Below are positions 1 through 27,076 of a DNA stretch of 63,849 nt, one piece after another; the stretch's first letter is position 1; each line of letters begins with the position of its first letter. The notes below the pieces were generated by a model, which was given only the letters and a program-made list of their open reading frames with translations, was not told the origin of the DNA and made no database searches. The stretch is from Sporichthya brevicatena (lineage in GTDB: Bacteria > Actinomycetota > Actinomycetes > Sporichthyales > Sporichthyaceae): contig NZ_BAAAHE010000013.1 of the NCBI RefSeq assembly GCF_039525035.1, positions 1-63,849 on the forward strand, given 5' to 3'. A program made the position numbers and the translations under genes.

Positions 1-51
1 CTACCGACTCCTCGAAGCAGGCCCCAACCCGGCTTGACGGGACATAGGAGC

Positions 52-88
52 GTCACCCCTTACTGCGGAGTAAGGGGTGTCACCCCTT
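52..88. repeat. Palindromic repeat, AAGGGGTGWCACCCCTT family, copy 1
   Basis: Two units face each other: a left-truncated one, then ACTGCGGAGT, then a full AAGGGGTGTCACCCCTT. The arms CACCCCTTACT and AGTAAGGGGTG are perfectly complementary around a GCGG loop. It lies 10 bases beyond the stop of the ATPase gene (minus strand), so it could end that transcript. Three other loci in this window carry the same unit. Confidence 0.85.
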
Positions 89-98
89 GTTCAACGCG

Positions 99-797
99 TC
101 AGTGGGCGGCGGAGCCGACGTACTGCTCGGCGAGGGCGTCGGCGTCGAGTTCGTCGGGTTCGCCGGCAAACGCGACCTCGCCCTTGTTCAGCAGATAGAC
201 GTAGTCCGCGACGTCGAGGGCGCGGGCGACGTACTGCTCGACGAGCAGGAGCGCGGCGCCGCGGTTCGCCAGGAGCGCGAGGAACTCGAAGACCTCGTCG
301 ACGATCTTCGGGGCCAGGCCCATGCTGACCTCGTCGAGGAGGACGAAGCGAGGCTTCTGGACGTAGGCGCGCGCGAGGGCGAGCATCTGCTGCTCGCCGC
401 CGCTCATGGTTCCGGCGACCTGGTTGATGCGCTCGCCGAGACGGGGGAACGCCTCGACGGCGGAGGAGATCGCCTTCTCCTCCTCCCCCGGGCGGCTGAA
501 CGTCACGAGGTTCTCCCGCACCGTCAGGCTGCGGAAGACCCCGCGACCCTCGGGGATGTGGCAGACCCCGCGGCGCATCAGGCGGTCCGGGTCCGCGCCG
601 GTGACGTCGTGCCCGTCGATCAGGACCGACCCCGACTTCGGGGTCAGCAGACCGCTCGCGGCGCGGAGCAGCGTCGTCTTGCCGGCCCCGTTCGGGCCGA
701 GCAGGGCGACGACCGACCCGGGCGGGACGATCAGGTTCACCTTGCGCAGCACCGTGGTGGCGCCGTACCCGGCGGTGAGGTCACGCAGGACCAGCAT
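99..797 (-). CDS. livF: ABC transporter ATP-binding protein, LivF type (cassette 1)
   Basis: This 232-residue cytoplasmic ATPase would power the Liv-type importer encoded just upstream. Walker A GPNGAGKT is at residues 34-41, the signature MSGGEQQ at 131-137 and Walker B FVLLDE at 151-156. The length and the VEQY segment near the C-terminus fit LivF rather than LivG. I chose the ATG at 797 because homology begins there; a longer open frame upstream runs into the acyl-CoA synthetase gene, 26 bases away. It is the last gene of the long minus-strand operon. No LivG-type ATPase accompanies it, so either it homodimerises or a partner is encoded elsewhere. The family call is secure; the substrate is unknown. 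Confidence 0.93.
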   Translation of the reverse strand: MLVLRDLTAGYGATTVLRKVNLIVPPGSVVALLGPNGAGKTTLLRAASGLLTPKSGSVLIDGHDVTGADPDRLMRRGVCHIPEGRGVFRSLTVRENLVTFSRPGEEEKAISSAVEAFPRLGERINQVAGTMSGGEQQMLALARAYVQKPRFVLLDEVSMGLAPKIVDEVFEFLALLANRGAALLLVEQYVARALDVADYVYLLNKGEVAFAGEPDELDADALAEQYVGSAAH

Positions 798-823
798 CGC
801 GTCGCTCCCGTCTTGAAAAGCCG

Positions 824-2377
824 TCAGATCCGGGTGCCCGCGCCGGCCCAGTACTCGTCGCGGATCAGGCGCTTGAGCAGCTTGCCCGTCGGCTCGCGCG
901 GCAGCTCGGGACGGAAGTCGACGCTGCGCGGGCACTTGACGTCGGCGAGCGAGGCACGGCAGAACGCGACGAGCTCCTCGGCCACCTCCGGCGACGGCTC
1001 GACGCCCGGCGCGAGCTGGACGACGGCCTTGACCTCCTCGCCGAACTCCTGGTTCGGGACACCGATGACCGCGACGTCCGCGACCTTCGGGTGCGTGGCG
1101 AGCAGGTTCTCCGCCTCCTGCGGGTACACGTTGACCCCGCCGGTGATGATCATGTTCGACGCCCGGTCGGTGAGGAACAGGTAGCCCTCGTCGTCCAGGT
1201 GGCCGATGTCGCCCATCGTCGAGGCGCCGTCGGACCGCACCGCCTGCGCGGTCTTGTCCGGGTCGTTGTGGTAGGCGAACGTGTTGCCCTCGGCGAAGTA
1301 GACGAGACCGTCCTCGTTCGGACCCAGGACCTCACCCTCGGGCCCGACGATCTCGACGCGGCCGAGCACCGCGCGACCGACGGTGCCGGGACGCGCCAGC
1401 CACTCCTGCGGCGTGACCCAGCACAGGCCCGCGCCCTCGGTCCCGCCGTAGTACTCGTGGACGATCGGGCCCCACCAGTCGAGCATCGCCGCCTTGACCG
1501 GCCGCGGACACGGCGCCGCCGCGTGCATGGCGGCCTTCAGACTCGACAGGTCGTAGCGCGAGCGCACGTCCTCCGGCAGCCGGAGCATCCGCGTGAACAT
1601 CGTCGGCACGAACTGAGCGTGCGTCACCTGATACTTCTCGACCGCGGCCAGCACACCTTCCGCGTCGAACTTCTCCATGATCACGGCGGTGCCGCCGAGC
1701 GCGATCACGTCCATGCACCAGCGCAGCGGTGCCGTGTGGTACATCGGCGCCGGCGACAGGTAGACGGTGTCCGGGCCCATCCCGAGGAGCGCCTTGCCCA
1801 TCCGGCCCGGTACCAGCGTCGTGCCCAGCGGCTGACCGGTGAACGGACGCAGCACGCCCTTCGGCCGTCCGGTCGTCCCGGACGAGTACGTGAGGTCGCT
1901 GCCCTCCAGTGGGTCGACGAGCCGCTCCCCCGCGTGCTTGGCCGCGAGGTCCGCCAGCGCCGGCCAGCCGTTCGTCTCACCGCCGACGACCACGACCTGG
2001 AGTTCGCGGCCGACCAGCTCGCGGGTCTTCGCGACGCGGTCGGCGTCGAGACCGGACGAGACGATCAGGACCCGTGCCCCGGAGTCGGAGACGATGTACG
2101 CCGCCTCGTCGGGAGTCAGCCGCGTCGAAAGGAACGTGTAGTTCAACCCGGCGTAGTGGGTGCCCCACGCCACCTGGAGGAACTCGAGGCGGTTCTCCAT
2201 CCACACGACCACGTGGTCGCGGACCGCCAGGCCCAGCTCGCGGAGCGCCAGCGCGATCTCGTGCGCGGACGCATCCAGCTGAGCAAACGTCAGCTGCTCC
2301 CCGGAACCGGCCATCACGACCGCCGGCTGGTCCGGATTCTCGGCGACGTGCGCACCGGGGTAGAACAGGCCCGTCAT
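824..2377 (-). CDS. AMP-forming acyl-CoA synthetase (FadD-like)
   Basis: This adenylate-forming enzyme (517 residues) would activate a carboxylic acid to its CoA thioester using ATP. The P-loop-like YSSGTTGRPKGV is near residue 170 and YGGTEG near 310. The hinge region GDIGHLDDEGYLFLTDR is followed by ITGGVNVYPQE, and PTGKLLKR carries the C-terminal lysine. The ATG at 2377 has GAGGAG seven bases upstream; a TTG sits directly before it. It lies between the solute-binding protein and the ATPase of the transport cassette, which suggests that the imported compound is an acid or is converted to one. A close paralogue is at 52863-54389. The exact substrate cannot be read from sequence. Confidence 0.92.
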   Translation of the reverse strand: MTGLFYPGAHVAENPDQPAVVMAGSGEQLTFAQLDASAHEIALALRELGLAVRDHVVVWMENRLEFLQVAWGTHYAGLNYTFLSTRLTPDEAAYIVSDSGARVLIVSSGLDADRVAKTRELVGRELQVVVVGGETNGWPALADLAAKHAGERLVDPLEGSDLTYSSGTTGRPKGVLRPFTGQPLGTTLVPGRMGKALLGMGPDTVYLSPAPMYHTAPLRWCMDVIALGGTAVIMEKFDAEGVLAAVEKYQVTHAQFVPTMFTRMLRLPEDVRSRYDLSSLKAAMHAAAPCPRPVKAAMLDWWGPIVHEYYGGTEGAGLCWVTPQEWLARPGTVGRAVLGRVEIVGPEGEVLGPNEDGLVYFAEGNTFAYHNDPDKTAQAVRSDGASTMGDIGHLDDEGYLFLTDRASNMIITGGVNVYPQEAENLLATHPKVADVAVIGVPNQEFGEEVKAVVQLAPGVEPSPEVAEELVAFCRASLADVKCPRSVDFRPELPREPTGKLLKRLIRDEYWAGAGTRI

Positions 2378-2424
2378 CAACTACTCCTCGCGAATCGGCA
2401 GATCGGTGGGGCGGACGCCCGGGG

Positions 2425-3918
2425 TCAGAGGCAGGACGCCTTGTTGCCCTGCGGCGCCTGCCAGCCCTTGGTGGTGAGCAGCACGGGGAACCAGCACGGG
2501 TACGCACCCGCACTGTCCTGCCCGTACTTGAAGGTCAGCGGGATGGTGAGACCGCCGAGGTTGTCCTTCTTGATCGTGCCGAGACCCCTGAGCACGAGCT
2601 CGGTCGTGATCGGGCCGGACGCCTCGGCGCCGAGGTTCGAGATCGCCTTGGCGAAGAGCTCACCGCTGACCCACGCCACGTTGCTCGCACCGTCGGGCGC
2701 CACGCCGGGCGCGTACCGCGCGAACGCCTCGTGGTAGCGCTTCTGCGCCGGCGTCGACTTCTCGGTCCACGGCGCGGTGGCGGAGCCGACCGCGAGGGTG
2801 ACCTCCTGGACGTTCTTGTCGCTCGTCACCGAACCACCGACGGCGATCGGCGAGGTGGAGAGGGCCGGCGTGTAGTTCAGCGCCTTGCAGGAACGGACGA
2901 GACGGCTGATCGCCGAGGCGTCGATCGCGAGCAGGAGCTGGTCCGCGCCGGCGTTCTTCGCGGCCTGGCACTGCGCCGAGTAGTCGGTCGAGGTGATCGA
3001 GACCTGGGTCTTGTAGACCTCGGTGATCCCGATCTTGTCCTTGCCGCGGTCGATGACGCCGACGGCGTCGGTGCACGGCTTCGCCTCGACGCAGTAGATC
3101 GTCGCGACCTTCTTGAACCCACGGTCGGCCTGGACCTTGATGGCGCCGAGCACGTCGCCGTCGAGGTCACCGCCCTGCGGGAACATGTAGGGCGTCCGGT
3201 TCCACTCGAAGTTGATCAGGTCGCCGCCGACGGCCGGGATCTTGAGCTGGTTGACCTTCGCCGCGAAGCCGGAGATCGACACCGGCGCCTGGCTGCCGAC
3301 GAGCGCGACGACCTTCTTGTTCTGCACGAGGTCCTGGACCGCGGCCGCAGCGCGCGAGGGGTCGGAGCCGTCGTCGGCCTGGAACAGCTGCACCGGGTGG
3401 CACGCGATGCCACCGCGGGCGTTGATGTCCTTCACCCACACCTGCATGGCGAGGCGGCTCGGGGACAGGATGTTGCCGACGATGCCGGTCCACCCGCCGA
3501 CCTGGCCGATGCGGATCGGCTCCAGCGCCTTCGTGCACGTCTGACTCTGGGTCGCCGCGCCGCCACCGGCCGCCGGCTTCGCACCCTGGCCCGCACCCGC
3601 GGCGGGCTTGGCGTCCGGCGCGGTGGTCGCGGTCCCCGCACCCGGCGCGGTCACGCCCGGCGCGGTCCCGCTGTCGACGACGGCACCGGGGTCGGGAACG
3701 CCCGGGTCGACGGCGCCGGGGGCGGCGACGTCACCGGAGTCGGCCGGCAGGCCCGTGTCGACGCCGGTCGTGGCCGGCGCGCGGCCCTCCGCGGCGACGA
3801 TCTCGGCGATCGGCGTGCGGGTTCCGCAGCCACTGGTCAGCACCACGGCACCGACGAGCAGCGTGGCGGCGCCCGCCCGGGCGAGGCGCCTCCGTGTGGT
3901 CCGTCGTGCAGTAGTCAT
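2425..3918 (-). CDS. Lipoprotein solute-binding protein of Liv-type ABC importer (cassette 1)
   Basis: This 497-residue extracytoplasmic binding protein (periplasmic binding protein type I, Leu/Ile/Val-like fold) would deliver substrate to the fused permease encoded 23 bases upstream. A short Arg-rich N-terminus, a hydrophobic segment and the lipobox LTSGC mark a lipoprotein. About 95 residues of Ala/Pro/Gly/Thr-rich linker follow before the folded domain begins near CTKALEPIRIGQVGGWTG. Several cysteines (in GIACHP, YCVEAKPC and RSCKAL, and the penultimate residue) are shared with the two binding proteins of cassette 2. The start at 3918 is supported by GGGAG six bases upstream; an ATG at 3939 is the alternative. 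The ligand is unknown; the family is not limited to amino acids. Confidence 0.9.
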   Translation of the reverse strand: MTTARRTTRRRLARAGAATLLVGAVVLTSGCGTRTPIAEIVAAEGRAPATTGVDTGLPADSGDVAAPGAVDPGVPDPGAVVDSGTAPGVTAPGAGTATTAPDAKPAAGAGQGAKPAAGGGAATQSQTCTKALEPIRIGQVGGWTGIVGNILSPSRLAMQVWVKDINARGGIACHPVQLFQADDGSDPSRAAAAVQDLVQNKKVVALVGSQAPVSISGFAAKVNQLKIPAVGGDLINFEWNRTPYMFPQGGDLDGDVLGAIKVQADRGFKKVATIYCVEAKPCTDAVGVIDRGKDKIGITEVYKTQVSITSTDYSAQCQAAKNAGADQLLLAIDASAISRLVRSCKALNYTPALSTSPIAVGGSVTSDKNVQEVTLAVGSATAPWTEKSTPAQKRYHEAFARYAPGVAPDGASNVAWVSGELFAKAISNLGAEASGPITTELVLRGLGTIKKDNLGGLTIPLTFKYGQDSAGAYPCWFPVLLTTKGWQAPQGNKASCL

Positions 3919-3941
3919 GGGGTCTCCCTGGATCGACATGC

Positions 3942-5858
3942 TCAGTGCGAGGCGAGGGCGGGCTTGCGGCGTTGCCCCTCGCCCGCGGGGGTGTTGAACC
4001 GGCGGTCGGTGGGTCCGACCTTCCGGTCGGTGTCGGTGACGGCCGCGACGCGGGCTCCGACGTCCGTGGACGAGAGCGCCGCGACCGCGAACGCGATGAC
4101 GCCGAACCCGATCTGCAGAACCAGGAACGCGTCGTTGTTCTCGATGTAGCCCGGCAGGACGAACAGCAGCACCGGGGCGACGAAGGCCGGGATGATCAGG
4201 CGGGCACCCGCCACGAACAGCACGGCCAGCACCAGCAGCGACTGGATCGCCGGGAAGCTGAATCCACCGACGCGGCCGAACAGTCCGGCGAACAGCGCAC
4301 CGCTGATCCCGGCCATTGACGCCGACATCGTGAAGATGATGACGAGCGTGATGCGCAGGTCGGCACCGAGCGTGCTCAGCGCGATCGGGGCGTCGGCGAG
4401 CGCACGCAGGAGGCGGCCCAACCGGCTCCGCTCGACGAGCAGGACGACGATCGAACCCGCGACCGCGAACGCCAGCAGCAGATAGAAGTACTCCTTGTCC
4501 GAGGTGAACCCGGACGGCCGCGGCGTCGCCAGTTGCTGCGAGAGCCCGAACATGAAGTCCTTCGTGTAGAAGAACTGGTCGAGCATGATCCCGAAGCCAA
4601 GCGTGGCCAGGCCGAGGTAGAGCCCGGACAGGCGGATCGCCGGGATCGCGATCAGCGCACCGACCGCGCCGGTGACGATCGCGGACACGACGAGCGCGAA
4701 GCCCCACGGCAGCCCCTGCTCCAGCATCCGGCCAAAACCTGCCGCGCCGATGGCCGCGAAGCCGAACTGGCACAGCGAGATCTGACCCGACAGCCGCACC
4801 AGCAGGCTGAGCGAGAGGAACAGGCACACCAGCGCGAGCGCGGTGTTCCACAGCGGCAGGCGGGTCCCGACGAACGCCGGCAACAGGGCCAGCGCGACGA
4901 CACCGACGCCGTACCCGATCCCCTGCTGGGCCGGGGTGAACCGGCTCGGACCGATCGCGCGGGCCTTCACGTCCCGGCCGATCTCGGCCAGGCTCCCCTT
5001 CCGGGCGAAGATCAGGATCGCGAGCAGGACCAGGAACGGCACGTTCAGGTCGAGGCCCTGCAGCCACGTCGTGGTGCCGGCCTCCTTGGAGACCAGCTTC
5101 TGCACGATGCCGACGGCGATACCACCGACGAACGCGAGCGGCAGGGACGAGAAGCGCGCGATGGCGGCGGCACCGAAGGCCTGGACGATGAGCAGCGTCA
5201 GCACGTCGACCTGCACCTGACGCTGCACCTCGGCGAACAGCACACCGGACGCAGCGGTGAAGGTCGTGCCGATGATCCACGCCGCGCGGCGCACCCGCGA
5301 GGGCCGAGCCCCGGCCATCGCGAGCAGGCTCGGGTCGTCGACGACGGCGCGCATGGCCACACCGAGTCGGGTGAGGCGGAAGAACAGGAACAGTCCCACC
5401 GCGGCCGCGGTGCCGAAGGCCACGATGATGACCTGCTGCGCGGTGACCCCGACCCCGGAGACCGTGAACATCTCCTCCTGCGGGAGGAACGAGGAGAAGT
5501 CCCGCGACGCGCCGCCCCAGATCAGCGCGATCAGCGCACGCAGACCGACGAGCAGCGCGACGGTGCCGACGATCCGGTACGTGATCGAGACTCCGGCGAG
5601 CGCGGCGGCGAACCGCTCGAAGACCAGACCACCGAGCACACCGAAGACACCGACGGCGAGAATCGCCGCGAGCCACGACGGCATGTCCGCCTGGTCGTGC
5701 GCGGAGTAGAAGAGGTAGGCCGCCAGCGCGGACAGCGTGCCGTGGCCGAAGTTGAACAGACCCGACGTCTTGTACGTGAGCACCAGGCCCATCGCCGACA
5801 GGCCGTAGATCGCACCGGTCGTGACCCCGAAGACGAGGAACGGGATGTACTCGCTCAC
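3942..5858 (-). CDS. Fused LivH-LivM branched-chain-type ABC permease (cassette 1)
   Basis: This 638-residue integral membrane protein joins both permease halves in one chain. The LivH-like half (about residues 1-290) starts with IYGLSAMGLVLTYKTSG and FNFGHG. The LivM-like half (about 310-620) has SGQISLCQFGFAAIGA and IRLSGLYLGLATLGFG, typical of LivM. Homologues are normally two separate proteins of about 300 residues. The start is GTG at 5858 with a weak GGTGA upstream. It sits between the Cys/His membrane protein (70-base gap) and the binding protein (23-base gap). A paralogous fusion is at 24653-26572, so the fusion is a stable feature of this transporter class. Confidence 0.92.
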   Translation of the reverse strand: MSEYIPFLVFGVTTGAIYGLSAMGLVLTYKTSGLFNFGHGTLSALAAYLFYSAHDQADMPSWLAAILAVGVFGVLGGLVFERFAAALAGVSITYRIVGTVALLVGLRALIALIWGGASRDFSSFLPQEEMFTVSGVGVTAQQVIIVAFGTAAAVGLFLFFRLTRLGVAMRAVVDDPSLLAMAGARPSRVRRAAWIIGTTFTAASGVLFAEVQRQVQVDVLTLLIVQAFGAAAIARFSSLPLAFVGGIAVGIVQKLVSKEAGTTTWLQGLDLNVPFLVLLAILIFARKGSLAEIGRDVKARAIGPSRFTPAQQGIGYGVGVVALALLPAFVGTRLPLWNTALALVCLFLSLSLLVRLSGQISLCQFGFAAIGAAGFGRMLEQGLPWGFALVVSAIVTGAVGALIAIPAIRLSGLYLGLATLGFGIMLDQFFYTKDFMFGLSQQLATPRPSGFTSDKEYFYLLLAFAVAGSIVVLLVERSRLGRLLRALADAPIALSTLGADLRITLVIIFTMSASMAGISGALFAGLFGRVGGFSFPAIQSLLVLAVLFVAGARLIIPAFVAPVLLFVLPGYIENNDAFLVLQIGFGVIAFAVAALSSTDVGARVAAVTDTDRKVGPTDRRFNTPAGEGQRRKPALASH

Positions 5859-5928
5859 GGCGTCACCGCCACGGACTTCGTCCTCGCGGGGCCGCCTTCG
5901 GTGTTGATGGTTCGCTCACTTCGTTCGC

Positions 5929-6399
5929 TCACGGTTCACACACCCCGCACGCCCCGAGGTCAGCCAGGTCGGTCGCCGCGACGACCTCCTTGCCCGACAT
6001 CAGCAGGCAGGACGGCCGGTGGAACCGGCGCGAACCCGGCCAGGTGACGTAGTTGCTGTCCGGCAGGACCTGCGTCGCAGTGCGCTCGGCGCGAGACTCC
6101 CGGCGCTCGAGCAGACCGGTGCGGACCGCGCGCTCGGCCGCGACGATGCGCAGCTTGCCGGCAACGAGCCAGAGCAACAGCCCGAGACCGGCCAGGGTCA
6201 CCGACCCGGTGCCCGTGACGAGCCAGCGCGCGTCGTCGCGCCAGTCCGCCTCCTTCGCGCTGCCGTACCAGGCCACGACGAGACCCACCGCGCCCAGGGC
6301 GTACGGCACCAGCAGCAGCGTCAGGTCGCGCCGACCCCACAGCCCCGTGCCCAGGTACGAATCACGCGGTTCGGCCGGGAGCGCATAGCGCTCGTTCAA
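5929..6399 (-). CDS. Membrane protein with C-terminal H-x3-C...C-x2-C motif (cassette 1)
   Basis: The function of this 156-residue protein is unknown. Two hydrophobic segments (about 27-46 and 60-80) are followed by an Arg/Glu-rich stretch and a tail holding FHRPSC (H127, C131) and CGVC (C151, C154). This spacing resembles the zinc site of Ada-type metal-binding domains (HxxxC ... CxxC), so I infer metal binding. The paralogue at 26569-27066 keeps all four residues plus the intervening CLL-x2-GK-x-VVAA. Translation probably starts at TTG 6399, which overlaps the previous stop as TTGA. Recurrence beside a Liv-type permease suggests a transporter accessory role. Confidence 0.7.
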   Translation of the reverse strand: MNERYALPAEPRDSYLGTGLWGRRDLTLLLVPYALGAVGLVVAWYGSAKEADWRDDARWLVTGTGSVTLAGLGLLLWLVAGKLRIVAAERAVRTGLLERRESRAERTATQVLPDSNYVTWPGSRRFHRPSCLLMSGKEVVAATDLADLGACGVCEP

Positions 6400-6755
6400 C
6401 GGGACCGCCCCACCGACAGCTCGGAACGGTCCGCGGACTCGCGCACCCCCGGCGCCGCGGTCATGCCGTTGCTGGCGGCCAGGCGCTCCGCCCGCTCCTC
6501 CTCCAGCAACACCCGCAGGCGCCGCAGCTCCCGCCACTCATCCCGCATGTCCGCGGACAGCCACAGCGCGGCCGCCGAGCCGACCAGGAAGATGCCGGTC
6601 AGCCCGCCGGAGATGAAGTACGGGATCTGGATGGCCAGGTGCGGGGTGTCACTGGCACCCAGCCAGCCCAGACCGAGCGCGAGCAGGCCGAGCAGCGCCA
6701 GAGCGACCGCCCCGGCCCGGTCCCACTGCGTCCGCAGCCACGTCAGGAGCTCCAT
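6396..6755 (-). CDS. Small two-helix membrane protein with DEWREL motif (cassette 1)
   Basis: This 119-residue protein is of unknown function. It has a short amphipathic start with QWDRA, one helix (about 14-33), a SDTP...QIPYFISGG loop, a second helix (about 46-66) and SADMRDEWRELRRLR, which leads into a charged, probably coiled-coil tail. The paralogue at 27077-27385 repeats QWDRA, SDTP, PYFIS and RDEWREL in the same order. I chose ATG 6755 because GAGG lies five bases upstream; GTG 6758 is possible. It begins two bases after the upstream stop and overlaps the next gene by four bases. It may be a coupling or assembly subunit of the importer; that is inference. Confidence 0.72.
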   Translation of the reverse strand: MELLTWLRTQWDRAGAVALALLGLLALGLGWLGASDTPHLAIQIPYFISGGLTGIFLVGSAAALWLSADMRDEWRELRRLRVLLEEERAERLAASNGMTAAPGVRESADRSELSVGRSR

Positions 6756-6757
6756 CA

Positions 6758-8164
6758 CTACCTCGATCCCACGATCTTCGATCCCACGACGGTCACGAGC
6801 GGTGCCCCGAGGAGCACGACCGCCGCGACCACGACGAACACGACGTACAGGTCGGTGAAGGGCGAACCCGCTCCCCCGATGCCCGGACCACCGGCGAGCT
6901 GGACGGGGCTCGGCGCCCCGACGGGCGCGACGCCCGGAGCGGTGCCGGGCAGGGCGCCCGGGACGGCCCCGAGGTCGGTGCCCGGCAGTAGACCGGGGTT
7001 CGCGGCGCCGTCGATGCCGTCCGGCAGCGCGCCACCCGCAGCACCTGAGGTGGCGTCAGTTCCCCCGCTGATCGGCATTCCCGCCCCGTCGAGGGCCGAG
7101 CCGTCGATCGACGCGGCGGTCAGGCCGAGGTCGAGGGTGACCGGGGTCGAGCTCTTCACGCCCAGCGGGTTCTCCGGCGGCGCCGGCAGTTCGGTCCGGA
7201 ACGAGAGCAACGGCGCGATGATGCCGTTCGGAGTCGGCACCGCGGCCTGGTAGGTGACCTCGACCCCGATGGCCGCAAAGGCTGCGGCCACGGTCTCGAA
7301 CGGCACCGGCGAGGAGTGCTGCACGCCGGCGGCGGTGAAGGTGACGACGAACTGGCCGTTGCGGAAGCCGAGCTCCGGCGCGTTGTAGCTCGAACCGCCG
7401 CCCGGCAGCGCGACCGGCGGGAACTCCAGCGTCGGCGGCTGCGGCGTGCCCGGCAGGGGGTTCGGGAGCGGCACCTTGGCCGGCGTGCTCTCCGGCATCG
7501 CGAAGCTCAGGCCCGGCGCGGTGATGTTGTCGATCCGCAGGTCGGACGCGGTGGTCCGCTTGCCGAACGTGTCCAGCAGGGCGACCGCCCGCGACTCGAC
7601 GCGGCCGATGTGGAGGAAGTCGAGCAGCGCCAGCGCCTCGAGGCGGGACTTGCCCTCGGCCTTCACACCCTCGGTGCTCTCCCGCGTGGCGTCGACCATC
7701 GCGGTGGTCTCCGCGCCCGTGGCCGCACTGCCCATCGTGGCGACGGACGCCGCCCGGGTCGGAGCCGCGTCGGCGCGCAGCGTCAGGCCCGGGAAGTTCA
7801 ACTCGGCGGGGTCGTCACCGGCGTTCGCCTGGGCCACCACCGGGTAGTTCGGCAGGGCGACGCCGAACAGGCCGCCGACGGCGCCGGGGGTGTTCGCGGC
7901 GGTGGTGCCCGGGTACGGCGCGGCCGCGAGAGCCTGCGAGTTGCCGAGCGACGACAGGTCCGCGGTCGCGATCGGGGCGTCGCCCTCGATCAGCAGGTTG
8001 AGCGGGATCGCGTCGTTGGTCGTCGTCGCGCGGAAGCCGTAGGCCTCCGCGTGACCGGTGTAGTTGATGTCCGCCTGGGCGGGCGACGAGAGCAGGACCA
8101 GCCCGCCGGTGGCCGCCACCGCCAACGCGGCCCCGGCCGCCAGCGTAGATCGCAGCGAACGCAT
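6758..8164 (-). CDS. Secreted, C-terminally membrane-anchored protein (cassette 1)
   Basis: I do not recognise a named family in this 468-residue exported protein. A signal peptide (about 1-31, ending SSPAQA) is followed by a mature region beginning DINYTGHAEAYGF. An alternating beta-type central part ends near GIIAPLLSFRTELPAPPENP. A Gly/Ala/Pro-rich stalk (about 375-430) leads to one C-terminal helix (DLYVVFVVVAAVVLLGAPLV) and a short basic tail. No LPXTG motif is visible. The paralogue at 27382-28656 shares the same plan and the GIIAP-x-LSF / LPAPP-type block. It begins 22 bases after the acyl-CoA dehydrogenase gene and leads the transporter part of the operon. It may be a surface capture or scaffold protein for the importer. 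Confidence 0.75.
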   Translation of the reverse strand: MRSLRSTLAAGAALAVAATGGLVLLSSPAQADINYTGHAEAYGFRATTTNDAIPLNLLIEGDAPIATADLSSLGNSQALAAAPYPGTTAANTPGAVGGLFGVALPNYPVVAQANAGDDPAELNFPGLTLRADAAPTRAASVATMGSAATGAETTAMVDATRESTEGVKAEGKSRLEALALLDFLHIGRVESRAVALLDTFGKRTTASDLRIDNITAPGLSFAMPESTPAKVPLPNPLPGTPQPPTLEFPPVALPGGGSSYNAPELGFRNGQFVVTFTAAGVQHSSPVPFETVAAAFAAIGVEVTYQAAVPTPNGIIAPLLSFRTELPAPPENPLGVKSSTPVTLDLGLTAASIDGSALDGAGMPISGGTDATSGAAGGALPDGIDGAANPGLLPGTDLGAVPGALPGTAPGVAPVGAPSPVQLAGGPGIGGAGSPFTDLYVVFVVVAAVVLLGAPLVTVVGSKIVGSR

Positions 8165-8186
8165 CTGATGTGTCCTCACTATTCGC

Positions 8187-9353
8187 TCACAGGCCCAGCG
8201 AGCGGCCGATGATCTCGCGCATGATTTCGTTCGTCCCGCCGTAGATCGTCTGGACGCGGGCGTCCACGAACGCACGGCTGACCGGGTACTCGCGCATGTA
8301 CCCGTAGCCCCCGTGCAGCTGCAGGCAGCGGTCGGCAGTCCGGACCTGCAGCTCGGTGACCCAGTACTTTGCCATTGCCGCTTGCTCGGCCGAGAGCTCG
8401 CCCGCCACATGCAGCCGGACGCAGTCGTCGAGGAACGTGCGGGCGATGGTCAGCTCGGTGACCAGTTCGGCGAAGACGAACCGGCTGTTCTGGAAGCTGC
8501 CGATCTTCTGCCCGAACGCCTTGCGGTTGGTGACGTAGTCGTAGGTGGACGACAGCACGCCACCGGCCGCTCCGAGCGCCGTGCAGGCCAGCGACAGGCG
8601 CTCCTGCGGCAGGTTCTTGACCAGGTAGGAGAAGGCCTCCCCCTCGTTGCCCAGCAGGTTCGCGACCGGGACGCGGGCCTCGGAGAAGAACAGCTCGCTG
8701 GTGTCCTGGCCGTGCAGGCCGATCTTGTCGAGGTTGCGGCCGCGCTCGAAGCCCGGCGTCCCGCGCTCGACGACCAGCAACGAGAGCCCGCGGTGGGGGT
8801 GGTCGCCGGTCCGGGCCACCACGATCACCAGGTCGGCGTTCTGCCCGCTGGAGATGAAGGTCTTCGCACCGTCGAGGACGTAGTGGTCACCCTCGCGCCG
8901 GGCGCGGGTCGTGATGCCGGCGAGGTCGCTGCCGGTGCCCGGCTCGGACATCGCGATCGCGCCGACCAGCTCACCCGAGGTCAGGCCCGGCAGCCAGCGC
9001 TGCTGCTGCTCGGCGTTGGTCAGCTCGAGCATGTAGGCGCCGACGACGTCGTTCTGCAGCGCGAGGCTCAGCCCCGCGCTCGACATCCCGGCGCGCGCGG
9101 CCTCCTCGCCGAGGATGGCGTTGAGACGGAAGTCGTTCGTCCCGGCGCCACCGAACTCGGTCGGCGTCCCGAACAGCAGCAGCCCGGCCTCGCCCGCGGC
9201 CGTGTAGAACGAGCGGTCGATGATCCCCTTGCTCTCCCACTCCTCGTCGAAGGGGACGACGGAGCGCTTGAGGAAGGTCCGGACGCTGTCGCGGAAGAGC
9301 CGGTGGTCGGAGTCGTAGACCGGCCGGTTCGGGTCGTCGAGCGGGTTGCGCAT
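8187..9353 (-). CDS. Acyl-CoA dehydrogenase
   Basis: This 388-residue flavoprotein would introduce an alpha,beta double bond into an acyl-CoA, passing electrons to ETF. The N-terminal helical domain (HRLFRDSVRTFLKRSVVPF) is followed by the middle-domain signature AIAMSEPGTGSDLAGI and the C-terminal QLHGGYGYMREYPVSRAFVDARVQ segment with YGGTNEIMREII. Family length is about 380-400 residues, so it is complete. ATG 9353 overlaps the stop of the SnoaL-like gene. It sits in the catabolic half of the operon beside crotonase, thioesterase and P450 genes, consistent with beta-oxidation of a side chain. Chain-length preference is unknown. Confidence 0.95.
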   Translation of the reverse strand: MRNPLDDPNRPVYDSDHRLFRDSVRTFLKRSVVPFDEEWESKGIIDRSFYTAAGEAGLLLFGTPTEFGGAGTNDFRLNAILGEEAARAGMSSAGLSLALQNDVVGAYMLELTNAEQQQRWLPGLTSGELVGAIAMSEPGTGSDLAGITTRARREGDHYVLDGAKTFISSGQNADLVIVVARTGDHPHRGLSLLVVERGTPGFERGRNLDKIGLHGQDTSELFFSEARVPVANLLGNEGEAFSYLVKNLPQERLSLACTALGAAGGVLSSTYDYVTNRKAFGQKIGSFQNSRFVFAELVTELTIARTFLDDCVRLHVAGELSAEQAAMAKYWVTELQVRTADRCLQLHGGYGYMREYPVSRAFVDARVQTIYGGTNEIMREIIGRSLGL

Positions 9354-9880
9354 CAGGCACCACTCCCGCGCGCGCCCCGGGCGAGGCTCATCAGGTACGC
9401 GCCACCGAGCTTGCCCTCGCGCGGCGGGAGGCCGCCGAGCTGCTGCAGCATCGGGACGATGTCGTAGGCGGACAGGTACGAACCCAGCTGGTCCCCGTGG
9501 AACTCGAGGAAGATGTCGCACCCGTGCGCGTCGAACGTGCGCTCGGGGTTCAGCTTCGCCGGCCCGGAGCCGGTTTGACGGAAGAGCACGATGCCGCGGC
9601 GGGCGTCGGGGGCGAAGAAGCGCTCGATCTCGGCGAACTGCACGTCGGGCATCGCCTCCCAGATCTTCTCCGTGTACGCGCGCACGCCCTCCTTGCCCTC
9701 GATGACCTCGGGCCAGAAGGTGCGGTCGTCCCAGCGGATGTCGTCCGAGAGCAGCTCGAGCACCCGCTCGGTGTCGTGCGAGTTCCAGGCGGCGAGCCAG
9801 CGGTCCGCGAAGTCGGCGAGGAACGCCGCGTCGCTCTGCGCGCCGGTCTGCGCGCCGGTCTGAGGCGTCGTCACGGTCAT
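9353..9880 (-). CDS. SnoaL/NTF2-like protein
   Basis: This 175-residue protein has a cone-shaped NTF2-like fold, recognisable from the start FADRWLAAWNSHDTERVLELLSDDIRWDD and the later FFAPDARRGIVLF and EFHGDQLGSYLSAYDIVPML blocks. Members act as ester cyclases, isomerases or limonene-epoxide-type hydrolases, or bind small ligands, so the reaction here is open. The start at 9880 follows the thioesterase stop by two bases, and its own stop overlaps the acyl-CoA dehydrogenase start (ATGA). The N-terminus holds a short TGAQTGAQS repeat that is probably disordered. Its place in the P450/beta-oxidation operon suggests action on an oxygenated pathway intermediate. Confidence 0.85.
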   Translation of the reverse strand: MTVTTPQTGAQTGAQSDAAFLADFADRWLAAWNSHDTERVLELLSDDIRWDDRTFWPEVIEGKEGVRAYTEKIWEAMPDVQFAEIERFFAPDARRGIVLFRQTGSGPAKLNPERTFDAHGCDIFLEFHGDQLGSYLSAYDIVPMLQQLGGLPPREGKLGGAYLMSLARGARGSGA

Positions 9881-9882
9881 GG

Positions 9883-10689
9883 TCAGGCTCCTTCGGAACG
9901 GGGACCGGCGGCGGTGATCAGGCAGACGGTGCGATCGGCACCGAGGTCGCGGATCTCGCCGACGAGCAGACGGCTCGTGGCGCGGTCGGTGACCGAGGTC
10001 CGGACGAACCGGACCGGGCCCACGGACGCCGGGGCGATGAAGCGGACGGTGAAGTCGTCGATGTGGCTCAGCCCGGCCTCCGTCGCAGCCGGCTCGACCA
10101 GCGTCACCATGAGCGCGCCCTGCCCGACACCCCACGGGTTCGTGGTGCGGTCGTTCAGAACGATCTGGCCGTCGGTGTGGAAGACCTCGGCCAACGGGCC
10201 GAGGGGGGCCTTCCGGTAGGGCGCGAGGTCGAAGGTGCCACCCGGTTCGATCTCGTGCAGGTACATGCGAATGCCCTCGCGGACACCGTGGTTCACCGTC
10301 GCCACCCCGACCACCTCGCCGCGGGCGTCCACGACCGTCACCTCGGCGACGGCGTGCGCCCGGCCGGCCCGCACCATCGAGCCGCGGCAGACCAGGTCAC
10401 CCTGAGCGTCGGGGTCGAGCACGTGCAGCACGATGTCGGCGGTCACCGCTCCCGCGGGGTCGACGACCAGGTTCGCGCTGGCCCCGGCCGCGATGTCCAC
10501 GCCCTGCACCATGCGGGCGAACACGGACCCGCCGGTCCCCGGTGCCGGGGTCGGCAGGATCGCCTCGACGACATCGGCCGTCGGACGGTGCACGCGCGCA
10601 CCGAACCAGGCACCGGCGGCGTCCGTGATGACGTCGGTGCGTGGCGGGGTGAGCTCGGCCTGCACGTGAGCGACCAGGTCAGCTGACAA
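9883..10689 (-). CDS. Acyl-CoA thioesterase, tandem hotdog type
   Basis: This 268-residue protein has two hotdog-like halves. The first runs to about residue 130 (FARMVQGVDIAAGASANLVV, then CRGSMVRAGRAHAVAEVTVVDARGEVV in two overlapping strands). The second has NPWGVGQGALMVTLVEPAATEAG and RTSVTDRATSRLLVGEI. Such proteins hydrolyse or remodel acyl-CoA thioesters. TTG 10689, with GAGGA six bases upstream, is the best start; it overlaps the upstream SCP2-like gene by 11 bases. GTG 10665 is an alternative. It ends two bases before the SnoaL-like gene, consistent with translational coupling. It may release CoA or supply a hydratase-like activity in the pathway. Confidence 0.8.
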   Translation of the reverse strand: MSADLVAHVQAELTPPRTDVITDAAGAWFGARVHRPTADVVEAILPTPAPGTGGSVFARMVQGVDIAAGASANLVVDPAGAVTADIVLHVLDPDAQGDLVCRGSMVRAGRAHAVAEVTVVDARGEVVGVATVNHGVREGIRMYLHEIEPGGTFDLAPYRKAPLGPLAEVFHTDGQIVLNDRTTNPWGVGQGALMVTLVEPAATEAGLSHIDDFTVRFIAPASVGPVRFVRTSVTDRATSRLLVGEIRDLGADRTVCLITAAGPRSEGA

Positions 10690-11086
10690 CGAGGTCCTCG
10701 CGTCCGTCGACCTTGAGGCGCTCGACGTAGCCGGGGAAGAGCTTGCGGGTCAGGGGGGCGAGCTGGAGCAGCTTGGTCAGCTGGCCCTCGACCTTGACCT
10801 TGCCGCGCGCCATGGCGAAGGGCAGGTTGACCTTGCCCTGCCAGTACGCGTTGGCGGTCTCGGTGCTCATCGACATCGTCGCGTCCGGGGCGGGCCCGTC
10901 GGTGCCGGCGATCACCTTCTTGTTCGGCAGATCGATGATCAGGTCGCACTCGGGCTCGGTGCAGTGCACGCGCAGCACCAGGCCGGTCGCGGCCATCTTG
11001 TCCCCGAGGTCGGGGTCGGCCAAGGCGTCCTCGAACACGCTGCCGATGTAGCGGTGCATCTCATCGGCGCTGGCGAATCCAGGCAT
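10679..11086 (-). CDS. SCP2 sterol-carrier-like domain protein
   Basis: This 135-residue single-domain protein has the SCP2 pattern of a hydrophobic ligand-binding fold: GLVLRVHCTEPECDLIIDL, then DATMSMSTETANAYWQGKVNL and FAMARGKVKVEGQLTKLLQLAPLTRKLFPGY split over two helices. SCP2 proteins bind or shuttle lipids, sterols or acyl-CoAs between enzymes. GGAG lies upstream of ATG 11086, and the stop overlaps the thioesterase start. It sits next to the P450, so a role in presenting a lipophilic substrate is plausible. The ligand cannot be predicted from sequence. Confidence 0.82.
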   Translation of the reverse strand: MPGFASADEMHRYIGSVFEDALADPDLGDKMAATGLVLRVHCTEPECDLIIDLPNKKVIAGTDGPAPDATMSMSTETANAYWQGKVNLPFAMARGKVKVEGQLTKLLQLAPLTRKLFPGYVERLKVDGREDLVVS

Positions 11087-11122
11087 GAGTGGGTCTCCTT
11101 GAGTCCGGCGAGTGTCCGGCGC

Positions 11123-12397
11123 TCAGGCCGGGGTGAAGGTGGCGGGCATCCGCTTGATGCCGTGGATGAAGTTCGAGACCAGGTACTCCGGCTCCCCCAC
11201 CTGCAGGTCGGGCACCCGGAAGAGCAGCTCCCGGAAGATCGAGCGCAGCTGCACCTTCGCCACGTGCGCGCCCAGGCAGTAGTGCACCCCACCCCCACCG
11301 AAGCCGACGTGGTCGTTGTCCTTGCGCGTGACGTCGAAGGCATACGGGTCGGCGAACACCGACTCGTCCCGGTTCCCCGACGGGTAGAGCAGCACGACCT
11401 TGTCCCCGGCCAGGATCTGCTGACCGCCGACCTCGGTGTCCACCCGCGCGTTGCGGCGGAAAGTCATCACCGGGGAGGTCCAGCGCACGAACTCGTCCAC
11501 CGCGGTACCGATGACGTTGTCGAAGTCGGCGACGAGGATCTCGCGCTGGTCGGGGAAGTCGCACAGCGCCTTCATCGCGAACGAGGTGGTCTGGCGGGTG
11601 GTGTCGTTGCCGGCCACGCTGATCAGGCAGAAGAACGCGGCGATGTCCTCATCGGTCAGCTTCTTGCCGTCGACCTCGGCCGCGAGCAGCGCCGAGATCA
11701 GGTCGTCCTCGGGCTGCGCCCGGCGCCGCTCACACAGGTCGAACGCGGCGTTGTGCAGCACGCCCATCGCGTTGAGCATCACCATCAGGTTGTCGCCGTC
11801 GACGTCGATCTGCTCGTCGTCGTTCCAGCCGACCAGCTCGTTCGCAGCCTTCGTGACCTCCTCGCGGATCTCCGGGTCGATGCCGACCATCTCCGAGACC
11901 GTCCACATCGGCAGCCGCGAGGCCACCGCGCGCACGAAGTCGACCTCACCCGGCCCGGCCAGCAGGTCGTCCACGATCTGCTTGGCCTGCCGCGCGATCT
12001 GATCCTCGATCAGCGCGATCCGCCGCGGCGTGAACGCCGAGGAGATCAGCCGACGGATCAACCCGTGCCGCGGGTTGTCCATCATCAGGATCGACGAGGT
12101 CGCCTCCAGCACGTCCGGCGGCATCAGGTCGAGCATGACGCCGCCGTACTCCTCGGCCGAGGAGGAGAACACCTCGTGGTCCCGGCTGATCCGGCGGATG
12201 TCCGCGTGCCGTGTGATCGCCCAGAACCCCGGGTCGTCCGGGTCCGGCATCAGCATCGACTGCACCGGGGCCTGCCAGGACACCGGCCGACTGCGTCGCA
12301 GCTCGGCGAAGACCTTCTCCCGGTCGTCAGCACTCTGCGCCCAGAACGCGAGCGTCGAGACGTCCAGCGGGTCGTAGTCGGTGCGCGTGGTCGGCAC
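11123..12397 (-). CDS. Cytochrome P450
   Basis: This soluble haem monooxygenase (424 residues) inserts oxygen into an organic substrate using a ferredoxin partner not found nearby. The I-helix AGNDTTR is at 262-268, the ExxR pair at E302/R305, and the haem loop FGGGGVHYCLG has the ligand C374. GTG 12397 is preceded by a strong GAGGAGG. It follows the crotonase gene by 26 bases and precedes the SCP2-like gene by 36. In actinobacteria this arrangement with acyl-CoA enzymes is common for steroid, terpenoid or alkyl substrates. Subfamily assignment would need a tree. No ferredoxin or reductase gene is visible in the window. Confidence 0.96.
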   Translation of the reverse strand: MPTTRTDYDPLDVSTLAFWAQSADDREKVFAELRRSRPVSWQAPVQSMLMPDPDDPGFWAITRHADIRRISRDHEVFSSSAEEYGGVMLDLMPPDVLEATSSILMMDNPRHGLIRRLISSAFTPRRIALIEDQIARQAKQIVDDLLAGPGEVDFVRAVASRLPMWTVSEMVGIDPEIREEVTKAANELVGWNDDEQIDVDGDNLMVMLNAMGVLHNAAFDLCERRRAQPEDDLISALLAAEVDGKKLTDEDIAAFFCLISVAGNDTTRQTTSFAMKALCDFPDQREILVADFDNVIGTAVDEFVRWTSPVMTFRRNARVDTEVGGQQILAGDKVVLLYPSGNRDESVFADPYAFDVTRKDNDHVGFGGGGVHYCLGAHVAKVQLRSIFRELLFRVPDLQVGEPEYLVSNFIHGIKRMPATFTPA

Positions 12398-12423
12398 GGT
12401 GTCCTCCTCTCGGGTCGATCCGG

Positions 12424-13236
12424 TCAGCGCGCGAGTCGCTCGGTGGCCTTGCTCTGGCCGGCGCGCAGGCGGGCCAGGCCGTCCTCGATGCGCCGGGTGA
12501 ACAGGTCGCGGCTGACCAGGTCGGCCGTCACGCGGAGCTCGTAGTTGAGCGCCCCGACCGGGTCCATGTGCCCGGCCCGCAGCGCGACCTCCTTGAGCAC
12601 GGTGAGCAGCTCGGGGCCGGCCTCGGCGATCTGCTTCGCGACGCGCAGGGCGTTCTCGCGCAGGGTGCCGACGGGGACGACCTCGCTCACCAGACCGATG
12701 CGCAGCGCCTCGGCGGCGGGAATCGGGTCGCCGGTGAAGTACAGGCGCCGGGCGTTCTGCGCGCCGACCTTGCGCTCGAGCGCGTGGTAGAAGCCGTTCA
12801 TCGCGTACTTCACCTGCGTCGAGCCGAACGCCGCGTTCTCCGACGCGATCGTCACGTCGCACATGTTGGCGACGTCCAGGCCGTAGCCGGGCGCGACGCC
12901 GGCGACCGCGGCCACCGTCGGCTTGCGGTAGTCGTAGATCGCGACCATCAACTTCGTGGCGAGCTCGACGAACCGGGTGCGCTCGTCACTGCCGGTCTGC
13001 GCGGTGCCCGTGCCCTGCAGGACGTCCAGCGCCCAACCGGAGCAGAAGTAGTCCTCGTTGCCGATGAACAGGACGGCGGCGACCTCGTCGTCGTACGCCC
13101 ACGCGGCGAGCTGGGTGCAGATGTCCTCGTGAAGCTCCCACCCGAGCGCGTTGCGCTTCTCGGGGTGGTTCAGCTGGAGGATGCCGACGCCGTTCTCGAC
13201 CGAGACGTTCATGTACTTGTAGGTCATCGGACTCAT
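12424..13236 (-). CDS. Crotonase-fold (enoyl-CoA hydratase/isomerase) protein A
   Basis: This 270-residue crotonase-superfamily protein has LQLNHPEKRNALGWEL, the first oxyanion-hole strand FIGNEDYFCSGW and the second AGVAPGYGLDVANMCDVTIASE. The segment that usually reads FxxPExxxGxxP reads FGSTQVKYAMNGF here, so the canonical catalytic glutamates of hydratases are missing. It may therefore be an isomerase, hydrolase, decarboxylase or non-catalytic partner. ATG 13236 overlaps the stop of crotonase B (ATGA). Translational coupling with B and the same missing residues suggest the two act as a pair. The fold is certain, the reaction is not. Confidence 0.9.
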   Translation of the reverse strand: MSPMTYKYMNVSVENGVGILQLNHPEKRNALGWELHEDICTQLAAWAYDDEVAAVLFIGNEDYFCSGWALDVLQGTGTAQTGSDERTRFVELATKLMVAIYDYRKPTVAAVAGVAPGYGLDVANMCDVTIASENAAFGSTQVKYAMNGFYHALERKVGAQNARRLYFTGDPIPAAEALRIGLVSEVVPVGTLRENALRVAKQIAEAGPELLTVLKEVALRAGHMDPVGALNYELRVTADLVSRDLFTRRIEDGLARLRAGQSKATERLAR

Positions 13237-13997
13237 GCCTTCTTCGCGCGGGAGCTGATCTTCGAGAACGCCTGCTGGATGCGCTCGTTGACCTCGGGGT
13301 GACGGATGACCTCCTTGTAGGCCAACGTCTCGTAGGTCAGCGCCGAGATCGGGTCCATCGCCGGGGAGCGCAGCGCCATCTCCTTGTTGTTCATGGCGGA
13401 CGCGGTCGTCGTCTCGGCGATCGAGCGGGCGAGCTCGGTTGCGGACTTGACGACCGTGCCGGCCGGCACCAGCCGGTCGATCAGGCCGATGCGCAGAGCC
13501 TCCTGCGGGTCGATGCGGTCACCGGAGAAGGTGAGCAGCTTCGCCTGGGACAGGCCGACGATGCGCCACAGCGGCGAGAAGTATGGCGTGAGACCGAACT
13601 TGATCTGCGCGTAGCCGAACATGCCGTTGTCGGCGCCGACGCGGATGTCGCAGAACACCGCGATGTCGAGGCCGCCACCGAGCGCCGGGCCACCGACGGC
13701 CGCGATGGTCGGCTTGCAGTAGTCGAGCAGCGTGCCGTAGGCGCGCAGGCAGGCGGCGGAGTAGGCCGCCCGGGTCTCGTCGGTGAAGCCCGACTGCAGG
13801 TCGAGGTCGAGTCCGGCGCAGAACACGTCCTCGCCGCCGGTGATCACGACCGCCGCGACGGAGTCGTCGGTCTTCCAGGCGTCCAGGGCGTCCGACAGCT
13901 GGCCGAGCAGCTCGAGACTGAGGGCGTTGCGACGCTCGGGGCGGGTGAAGGTGATGGTGCCGACCCCGTCGGCCACCGTGGTGCTCACGCTCGACAT
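13233..13997 (-). CDS. Crotonase-fold (enoyl-CoA hydratase/isomerase) protein B
   Basis: This is the first gene of the long minus-strand operon (254 residues). The crotonase motifs are ITFTRPERRNALSLELL, GGEDVFCAGLDLDL and GGPALGGGLDIAVFCDIRVG. In place of the usual Pro-Glu and later Glu it has FGYAQIKFGLTPYFS, so the standard hydratase glutamates are absent, as in protein A. ATG 13997 has AGAGG five bases upstream. Tandem TetR-type operators lie directly upstream at 14020-14061. A variant crotonase reaction on an activated pathway intermediate is likely; which one is unknown. Confidence 0.9.
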   Translation of the reverse strand: MSSVSTTVADGVGTITFTRPERRNALSLELLGQLSDALDAWKTDDSVAAVVITGGEDVFCAGLDLDLQSGFTDETRAAYSAACLRAYGTLLDYCKPTIAAVGGPALGGGLDIAVFCDIRVGADNGMFGYAQIKFGLTPYFSPLWRIVGLSQAKLLTFSGDRIDPQEALRIGLIDRLVPAGTVVKSATELARSIAETTTASAMNNKEMALRSPAMDPISALTYETLAYKEVIRHPEVNERIQQAFSKISSRAKKA

Positions 13998-14119: not shown

Positions 14120-14749
14120 ATGGCGAAGGCGGCACCGGTCGTCGCCCGGCGGGGACGGCCGCCGCGGTCGGACGCTCCCGACGGTCGGGCCCGCCTGATC
14201 GCCGCCGCTCGTGACGTGTTCGGAGCCCAGGGCTACGGCAGCACCACGGTCCAGGACCTGGTCAAAGCCGCCGGCGTCAACCCCCCGACGCTCTACCACC
14301 ACTTCGACGGCAAGGCCGGCCTGTTCGTCGCCGCGGCGGAGGACACCTACGCCCCCGTCCTCACCCGCTTTCAGGAGGCCGTCGCCGGGCAGTCCGAGTT
14401 CGGGCCGGCGCTCGAGGCGCTGCTGTCGGCGGCGGTCACGCTGATGGACACCGAGCGCGCCCTCGCGCGCATGTTCATGGTGATCCAGTTCGAGTACCCG
14501 CGCCGCCCCGAGCTTCGCGACAGCCTGCGGCCGCTGCTGCGGACCTACCGCGAGTTCTTCGACTCCCTGGCCGCACTCGCGCCCGACTCGCTCGCCCCCA
14601 CCCCGCGCGCCCGCATCGACCTCAGCCGCGCCCTCGTCTCCGTCCTGACCGGGTTGAACAACGAAGCCCTGCTGCTCCCCAACGCCCGCGACTTCGCCGG
14701 GCTCGTCCGCTCGACCCGCGCACTGCTCGGCCTGCCGACCGAGGACTGA
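14120..14749 (+). CDS. TetR-family transcriptional regulator (divergent to the 14-gene operon)
   Basis: This 209-residue DNA-binding protein has an Arg/Pro-rich N-terminal arm (RRGRPPRSDAPDGR). The TetR helix-turn-helix spans about residues 22-65 (LIAAARDVFGAQGYGSTTVQ, then AAGVNPPTLYHHFDGKAGLF). A ligand-binding helical domain with a C-terminal part rich in Leu and Arg follows. AAGGAGG precedes ATG 14120. The gene is divergent from the catabolic/transport operon and three bases from the end of the convergent ligase gene. I infer that it represses the operon, itself and probably the ligase through the AATGTA-N8-TACATT sites, released by a CoA ester or the substrate. Confidence 0.93.
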   Translation: MAKAAPVVARRGRPPRSDAPDGRARLIAAARDVFGAQGYGSTTVQDLVKAAGVNPPTLYHHFDGKAGLFVAAAEDTYAPVLTRFQEAVAGQSEFGPALEALLSAAVTLMDTERALARMFMVIQFEYPRRPELRDSLRPLLRTYREFFDSLAALAPDSLAPTPRARIDLSRALVSVLTGLNNEALLLPNARDFAGLVRSTRALLGLPTED

Positions 14750-26572: not shown

Positions 26573-27066
26573 GCGCAGACCCCGCACGGCTGAAGGAGGG
26601 CCTCGTCCGCGGCGACGACCGTCTTGCCGCGCACCAGCAGGCAGTCGGCGCGGTGGTGGTGCGCCATCCCGGCGACGGTGACGCGACCCCGGTCGGTGGA
26701 GATGTTCTCTCCCCCGGTGGGTGCGGTGCGCGCCGCGATGCGCGCCCCGACCTGACGCCGCACCGCGCGCGCCTCGATGCGCACCCGCGCGAACCCGCGG
26801 TAGAGCCACACCCCGACACCGGCGCAGGCCACGACCACGCCGATCATCGCCAGCGCGGTCCAGGACATCTGGCTGTCCCAGTCAGTGGTGTCGCTCGCGC
26901 CGAACCACGCGAGCGCGACCAGCAGGACGCCGACGGCCAGCAGCACCGCGGTCGCGGTGAGGTCCGCCCGCGTCCACAGCGCGTCCGGCATCGGCCGCGC
27001 GGCACGGGCGGACCGAGGCTTGGCCCGGGTCCGCACGGCAGGCGTCGTCACCTGAGTACTCGTCAT
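26569..27066 (-). CDS. Membrane protein with C-terminal H-x3-C...C-x2-C motif (cassette 2)
   Basis: This 165-residue paralogue of the protein at 5929-6399 has a basic N-terminus (about 35 residues), two helices (about 35-55 and 69-89), an Arg-rich juxtamembrane segment and the tail HHRADC...CGVC. H138, C142, C161 and C164 match the cassette 1 residues. The shared core CLL-x2-GK-x-VVAA lies between the two pairs. ATG 27066 is the only start after the small upstream gene ends at 27077, but its ribosome binding site is weak. The conservation of four Cys/His residues while the rest drifts argues for metal binding or a disulfide site. Function unknown. Confidence 0.7.
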   Translation of the reverse strand: MTSTQVTTPAVRTRAKPRSARAARPMPDALWTRADLTATAVLLAVGVLLVALAWFGASDTTDWDSQMSWTALAMIGVVVACAGVGVWLYRGFARVRIEARAVRRQVGARIAARTAPTGGENISTDRGRVTVAGMAHHHRADCLLVRGKTVVAADEALLQPCGVCA

Positions 27067-27076
27067 CGCGACGGGA

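Follow-up and report, generated by a model that had tools for sequence, protein, structure and literature searches.

A variant of the Liv/HAAT importer with three additional protein families, expanded in Sporichthyaceae and encoded together with putative lipid-oxidation genes

The transport half of a 14-gene operon of the soil actinobacterium Sporichthya brevicatena is, as judged from its genes, a distinct variant of the Liv/HAAT importers that is undescribed within the literature searched and strongly expanded in the Sporichthyaceae. The operon is located at positions 99-13997 on the minus strand of the window, the stretch of 63,849 nucleotides analysed here, which makes up contig C13 in full and comes from a source genome of 5.23 Mb in 89 contigs (G000). 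It is proposed, with rather more confidence than doubt, that this one operon serves to import and to start the oxidation of one lipophilic compound, most likely a methyl-branched or isoprenoid one, and that its transport half represents a distinct Liv/HAAT sub-type present in about 32 copies. What is new enough to report is the importer variant together with its expansion and not the operon by itself; a partial literature search found no paper on these modules, which is not proof of novelty.

Organisation of the operon

The 14 genes, here numbered g1 to g14 in the direction of transcription, are all co-directional, and coordinates and gene calls agree with the initial annotation in placing them on one strand between positions 99 and 13997. 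From LivF (g14) upward the junctions measure +26, +47, +2, +70, -4, +2, +22, -1, +2, -11, +36, +26 and -4 nt, a range of -11 to +70 nt that is in keeping with the gaps of at most 70 nt reported before. The ATGA-type overlaps, which had been described as many, do exist, and the word is generous for two overlaps of 4 nt, one of 1 nt and one of 11 nt. GC3 is 0.90-0.97 across all 14 genes. In a complete congeneric genome of 5,500,153 bases (G001), which is approximately 92.5% identical across the region, all 14 genes and a divergent TetR gene are colinear with the window at amino acid identities of 79-99%, and dN/dS between the two ranges from 0.04 for the P450 and LivF to 0.29 for g5, the fastest-evolving gene of the unit, which indicates purifying selection. 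The TetR-family regulator (14120..14749, plus strand; PF00440, 5e-18) adjoins the operon in both genomes, is a candidate repressor and probably controls the operon.

Strong internal promoters had been named as the observation that would speak against a single unit, and a consensus scan found no promoter-like or terminator-like site within the operon, which is weak evidence at 70% GC. In G001 a perfect hairpin and then a T-rich stretch (TTTCTT) come directly after LivF. The window has this palindrome behind LivF too (CACCCCTTACT..AGTAAGGGGTG; 48..98, minus strand), where it is a candidate terminator with an RNA fold of -34.4 kcal/mol (z -5.3). A single operon is the best reading of 99-13997 because of the colinearity in G001, the gene overlaps, the lack of an internal promoter or terminator match and the hairpin after LivF in G001. 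That the catabolic genes g1-g7 and the transport genes g8-g14 are separate transcription units which merely adjoin each other is improbable: paralogous modules do recur without this catabolic set, but the two halves are 22 nt apart and the ligase gene g13 sits within the transport half, while the scan result and the colinearity of the whole unit also count against it. The recurrence of modules without g1-g7 does imply that the two halves were joined secondarily. Since only two close species, G000 and G001, were found to have all 14 genes as a set, the operon looks like a recent union of a widespread transport module with a particular set of catabolic genes.

The palindrome at 48-98 belongs to a dispersed repeat, GGTGACACCCCTTACTnnGnAGTAAGGGGTG, which has further copies, intergenic or at the ends of contigs, in about 18 other loci that were retrieved (L105, L106, L107 and L206 among them), so its role as a terminator is a putative one; members of this palindrome family may act as bidirectional terminators. 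The window contig itself breaks near this repeat. A second palindrome, GTGAGCGAACGAAGTGAGCGAAC, which is REP-like and has a short repeat on its flanks, is part of an insertion of about 62 nt in the gap between g10 and g11 (5859..5928, no strand assigned). The insertion is absent from G001, where g10 and g11 overlap by 4 nt, and is present as a single copy in the window. It accounts for the 70-nt gap, the largest in the unit, and may have broken the translational coupling of g10 and g11.

The transport core

The transport core consists of minus-strand genes of the Liv/HAAT families. The LivK-type substrate-binding lipoprotein g12 (2425..3939) has the lipobox LTSGC, matches Peripla_BP_6 (PF13458, 9.5e-42) and shows weak PDB matches to HAAT receptors; g11 (3942..5858) is a fused LivH-LivM permease (LivHM) of 638 aa in which the BPD_transp_2 domain (PF02653) occurs in two stretches; and g14 (99..797), the sole ATPase of the unit, is of LivF type by its N-terminus and length (PF00005, 1e-31) and shares 99% amino acid identity with its G001 counterpart. 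The unit thus holds the receptor, both permease domains and the LivF ATPase that define Liv/HAAT systems. Liv systems usually have two ATPases, and LivG was not found in the 14-gene unit, which is therefore termed a Liv/HAAT variant and not a standard member. The possibility that a LivG gene lies past the end of the contig was rejected, as in G001 LivF is succeeded by the hairpin and an unrelated crotonase-like reading frame. Across the 32 paralogous modules of the genome described below, two ATPases are encoded in 22, LivF only in seven and none within 7 kb in three; the seven are L075, L080, L086, L092, L095 and both modules of the window, the 14-gene unit included. A LivF homodimer or a shared pool of LivG would be unusual for Liv systems.

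Like LivK-LivH-LivM-LivG-LivF systems, the modules have a Peripla_BP_6 receptor, BPD_transp_2 domains and LivF, with the second, LivG-type ATPase in 22 of the 32. Unlike those systems they fuse LivH and LivM and add g8, g9 and g10, LivG is missing from about a third of them, they are tied to P450 and CoA genes, and they reach up to 32 copies per genome. The receptor and permease of the initial annotation are confirmed, whereas a plain Liv system is not what they form: the transport half belongs to a set of 32 paralogous modules that carry three extra proteins.

Three additional proteins

The uncharacterised genes at 5929-8164, which had not been singled out before, are the most interesting part of the unit. 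The first, g8 (6758..8164, minus strand), encodes a predicted secreted, beta-rich protein with hydrophobic segments at residues 7-25 and 441-459; after an N-terminal signal segment the AlphaFold model has a beta-rich domain of high confidence (residues ~30-360), then a linker of low confidence and, at the C-terminus, a TM helix that would anchor the protein. Foldseek and VIA-align matched it only to outer-membrane beta-barrels, with a TM score of 0.13 and Z values of at most 6.1, within the range of chance, so no fold is claimed and none is rejected. The product of g9 (6396..6755, minus strand) is a 2-TM protein with a QWDR...SADLRDEWR signature in an alignment of 25 sequences and matches no family above the cut-off. 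The third, g10 (5929..6399, minus strand), is likewise a 2-TM protein (AlphaFold pLDDT 85, two long helices; no structural match at E 0.001), the C-terminus of which carries an H-x3-C...C-x2-C motif. Its residues H127, C131, C151 and C154 are invariant in 23 aligned sequences and form a putative metal knuckle. The motif may resemble the Ada metal-binding domain, an assignment to which Pfam gave no support.

At an E value of 0.001 Pfam matched none of 30 g8 and none of 25 g9 proteins, and two of 23 g10 proteins matched DUF6233 weakly; the g10 of the window matched neither a Pfam nor an NCBIfam model. In NCBIfam, one g9 protein weakly matches the Cg1360 family and one of the 30 g8 proteins weakly matches choice-of-anchor P (NF040603, 8.7e-5), a family which g8 resembles as a surface-anchored extracellular protein and from which it differs in being tied to an importer and, for the g8 of the window, in having no match. 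Searches of PDB sequences with g8 and g10 profiles returned nothing convincing. Stray weak matches apart, g8, g9 and g10 are three protein families without a curated description.

Recurrence of the transport module

The genome was searched with g11 and g8, up to 20 kb were fetched for each match, and genes were called and clustered. The source genome encodes 32 fused LivHM permeases, 32 g8, 31 g9 and 28 g10 proteins, and a receptor gene is present in most of the 32 modules. Their usual order is g8-g9-g10-LivHM, with g8 placed after the ATPases in several modules. A second module in the window (21692-29345) comprises two receptors, LivHM (24653-26587), g10, g9, g8 (27382-28656) and LivF (28653-29345) and has no LivG, and module L083 (G000 C16:93500-113400) has five tandem LivK-type receptors, which suggests receptor diversification for one permease. 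The divergence of g8 between modules follows that of LivHM (distance correlation r 0.88), and similar values are found for LivHM and the receptor (0.80) and for g8 and the receptor (0.79; p 0.0005 each), while the distances of g9, g10 and LivHM intercorrelate at r 0.51-0.56 (p 0.0005). As the genes of a module may simply be inherited together, these correlations show joint inheritance, not physical contact. By their recurrence and divergence g8, g9 and g10 appear to behave like parts of the importer.

Matches to g9 number 34, 32, 16, 18 and 15 in five genomes of the family and 0-4 in other relatives; across the phylum g9 was matched in 31 of 396 genomes, and within the class g8 was matched in 16 of 394. 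The order g8-g9-g10-LivHM-ATPase-ATPase-receptor is found in Streptomyces sp. CB01635, S. antnestii, Haloechinothrix halophila, Actinophytocola and Frankiales MAGs, and in Nocardioides marmoriginsengisoli the receptor precedes the ATPases in an otherwise similar g8-g9-g10-LivHM arrangement. The gene order of the module also occurs in Acidimicrobiia and many MAGs. These modules were found with the g9 alignment, whereas a scan of the named genomes with a single LivHM protein gave no match. The Streptomyces modules have no recognised CoA genes beside them.

Of the 48 P450 genes in the source genome, 13 are no further than 10 kb from a module LivHM where chance predicts 5.4 (p 0.002), and 25 are no further than 20 kb from one where chance predicts 9.3. 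Twelve oxidation and CoA families make up 34% of the non-module genes in 20-kb neighbourhoods, and in 20 regions chosen at random their share is 15% (p 0.002). Because the family models were built from the module neighbourhoods and some regions overlap, the P450 comparison is the cleaner of the two. Genes for linalool dehydratase/isomerase, AtuA and KshA-like (Rieske) proteins occur near other modules. The 15% in random regions shows a genome that is rich in catabolic genes overall, which counts against the preferred reading of linked import and oxidation, as do the Streptomyces modules, the finding of the full 14-gene set in two close species only and the genes missing from the unit. An importer of the branched-chain amino acid type that merely shares an operon with a lipid pathway would explain why receptor, permease and ATPase all belong to Liv/HAAT families, but it has little probability in view of the 32 copies, differing in their receptors, that a single genome of 5.2 Mb carries, the non-random closeness to P450 genes, the three recurrent extra proteins, the colinearity of both halves in G001 and the weak similarity of the receptor to solved Liv proteins.

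Catabolic genes and the likely substrate

The functions that the initial annotation had given to the genes are backed by Pfam matches; all of the genes described in this section are on the minus strand. The P450 g3 (11123..12397) is CYP268-like, being 54.9% identical over 410 residues to CYP268A2 (PDB 6bld, E 7e-143), which exceeds the 40% identity to a member that defines the CYP268 family, and the two proteins have the heme-cysteine and I-helix motifs in common in the alignment. CYP268A2 is also active on methyl-branched lipids other than geranyl acetate. For the M. marinum enzyme, PMC8521596 reports geranyl acetate as a substrate, citing its reference 32. The 55% identity favours a methyl-branched or isoprenoid substrate, and by analogy with CYP268A2 g3 may oxidise branched isoprenoid lipids. 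Unlike the mycobacterial CYP268A2 and CYP124, g3 is encoded inside an importer operon, and its putative substrate is read across from CYP268A2.

Whether the operon might instead serve a sterol or steroid has to be weighed, as g3 has CYP124, CYP125 and a reconstructed ancestral CYP125 among its close relatives, and in M. neoaurum CYP125, CYP124 and CYP142 oxidise sterol side chains (PMC13254585). The SCP2-like and SnoaL/ketosteroid-isomerase-like proteins of the operon and the KshA-like Rieske genes near other modules point in the same direction. Such a substrate is nevertheless doubtful, since CYP268A2 is by far the nearest solved P450 (480 bits, compared to 379 for ancestral CYP125, 319 for CYP124 and ~258-281 for native CYP125), a ring-cleavage gene is absent from the operon and the genome already has one canonical Mce operon.

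Among the remaining genes, an SCP2-like lipid carrier is encoded by g4 (10679..11086; PF02036, 1.4e-10), a hotdog (thioesterase-like) protein by g5 (9883..10689; PF03061, 4.7e-6; start TTG 10689 or GTG 10665), a SnoaL/NTF2-like protein by g6 (9353..9880; PF12680, 3.5e-14) and an LCAD-like acyl-CoA dehydrogenase by g7 (8187..9353; PF00441/02770/02771), for which the best PDB matches are 2pg0 and the mitochondrial long-chain acyl-CoA dehydrogenase 8w0t. The acyl-CoA synthetase g13 (824..2377; PF00501, 1e-65) is FadD4-like, scoring 581 bits against NF038341 (FadD4), under the cut-off of 850. A lipophilic substrate is supported by the predicted CYP268-type P450, SCP2 protein, long-chain-type dehydrogenase and FadD4-like ligase. 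As a marker for the catabolic half g5 was dropped: in 396 genomes its matches beyond the genus were all weak and partial.

The tandem paralogs g1 (13233..13997) and g2 (12424..13236) are 38% identical and together occupy 12424-13997. The crotonase fold claimed for them is correct (PF00378 in each), whereas the two catalytic glutamates of enoyl-CoA hydratase are replaced by Asp and Gln in both in the alignment, so neither is likely to be an ordinary hydratase; they possibly form a heteromer with a different reaction. The complete CoA-ester breakdown proposed before is not borne out: by Pfam none of the 14 genes encodes a 3-hydroxyacyl-CoA dehydrogenase or a thiolase, and a canonical enoyl-CoA hydratase and a P450 redox partner are also missing from the unit. 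This incomplete route, together with the glutamate-less crotonases, the hotdog and SnoaL-like proteins and the anchored surface protein, would fit the tailoring of lipids as well, in an operon for modifying or recycling an endogenous lipid or one of the cell envelope (e.g. a spore or wall isoprenoid) and not for using a compound from outside. This is unlikely, as uptake with catabolism is what a Liv-type importer, a lipoprotein receptor, a CoA ligase and an acyl-CoA dehydrogenase usually serve in combination, and the diversity of the 32 copies points to many substrates from outside the cell.

Proposed mechanism and relation to Mce importers

Gene content, order and conservation, the recurrence of g8-g9-g10-LivHM and the correlated divergence of g8 and LivHM are observed; complex formation, the direction of transport, the class of substrate and the order of reactions are predicted from sequence in the following scheme. 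The LivK-type lipoprotein g12 and the membrane-anchored g8 would receive the hydrophobic ligand outside the cell, and the fused permease g11 would move it inward with the 2-TM proteins g9 and g10, powered by LivF (g14) either as a homodimer or with a LivG of another module. Inside the cell the P450 g3 would hydroxylate a terminal methyl and the synthetase g13 would trap the acid as its CoA ester, which SCP2 (g4) may shuttle. The first specialised steps would fall to the dehydrogenase g7 together with g5, g6 and the atypical crotonases g1 and g2, and general beta-oxidation would then follow elsewhere. Of the single pathway that had been proposed for one imported lipophilic compound, the one operon, the lipophilic substrate and the co-inheritance of import and oxidation genes are supported, and the complete breakdown of the CoA ester is not; one pathway for one such compound is plausible but unproven.

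In terms of how it may work, the importer is comparable to Mce1 and Mce4, which are likewise multi-subunit ABC importers with surface proteins and a link to lipid catabolism. The comparison is one of function only, as the permease and ATPase of the modules are Liv-type and Pfam (E 0.001) finds no MlaD/Mce domain in g8-g10 and their paralogs. Within the genome, MlaD proteins are confined to contig C19 and its one six-gene Mce cluster (C19:2009-7508, L110), which the genome has in addition to the 32 Liv-type modules. It is about as probable as its opposite that g8-g9-g10-LivHM with LivK and LivF/G constitutes an ABC importer class of its own for hydrophobic molecules, one that evolved from the Liv family as the actinobacterial equivalent of Mce and that the Sporichthyaceae would have diversified into some thirty substrate-specific loci for uptake and oxidation.

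The surface protein and the two small membrane proteins, with a Liv core near P450 and CoA genes, form a concrete candidate that is ready for knockout. About 32 recurrences of an importer with three undescribed proteins suggest a family of nutrient importers in bacteria that has been little noticed, and three undescribed families with a 32-fold expansion in 5.2 Mb would make the Sporichthyaceae modules a good system for how importer specificity diversifies.
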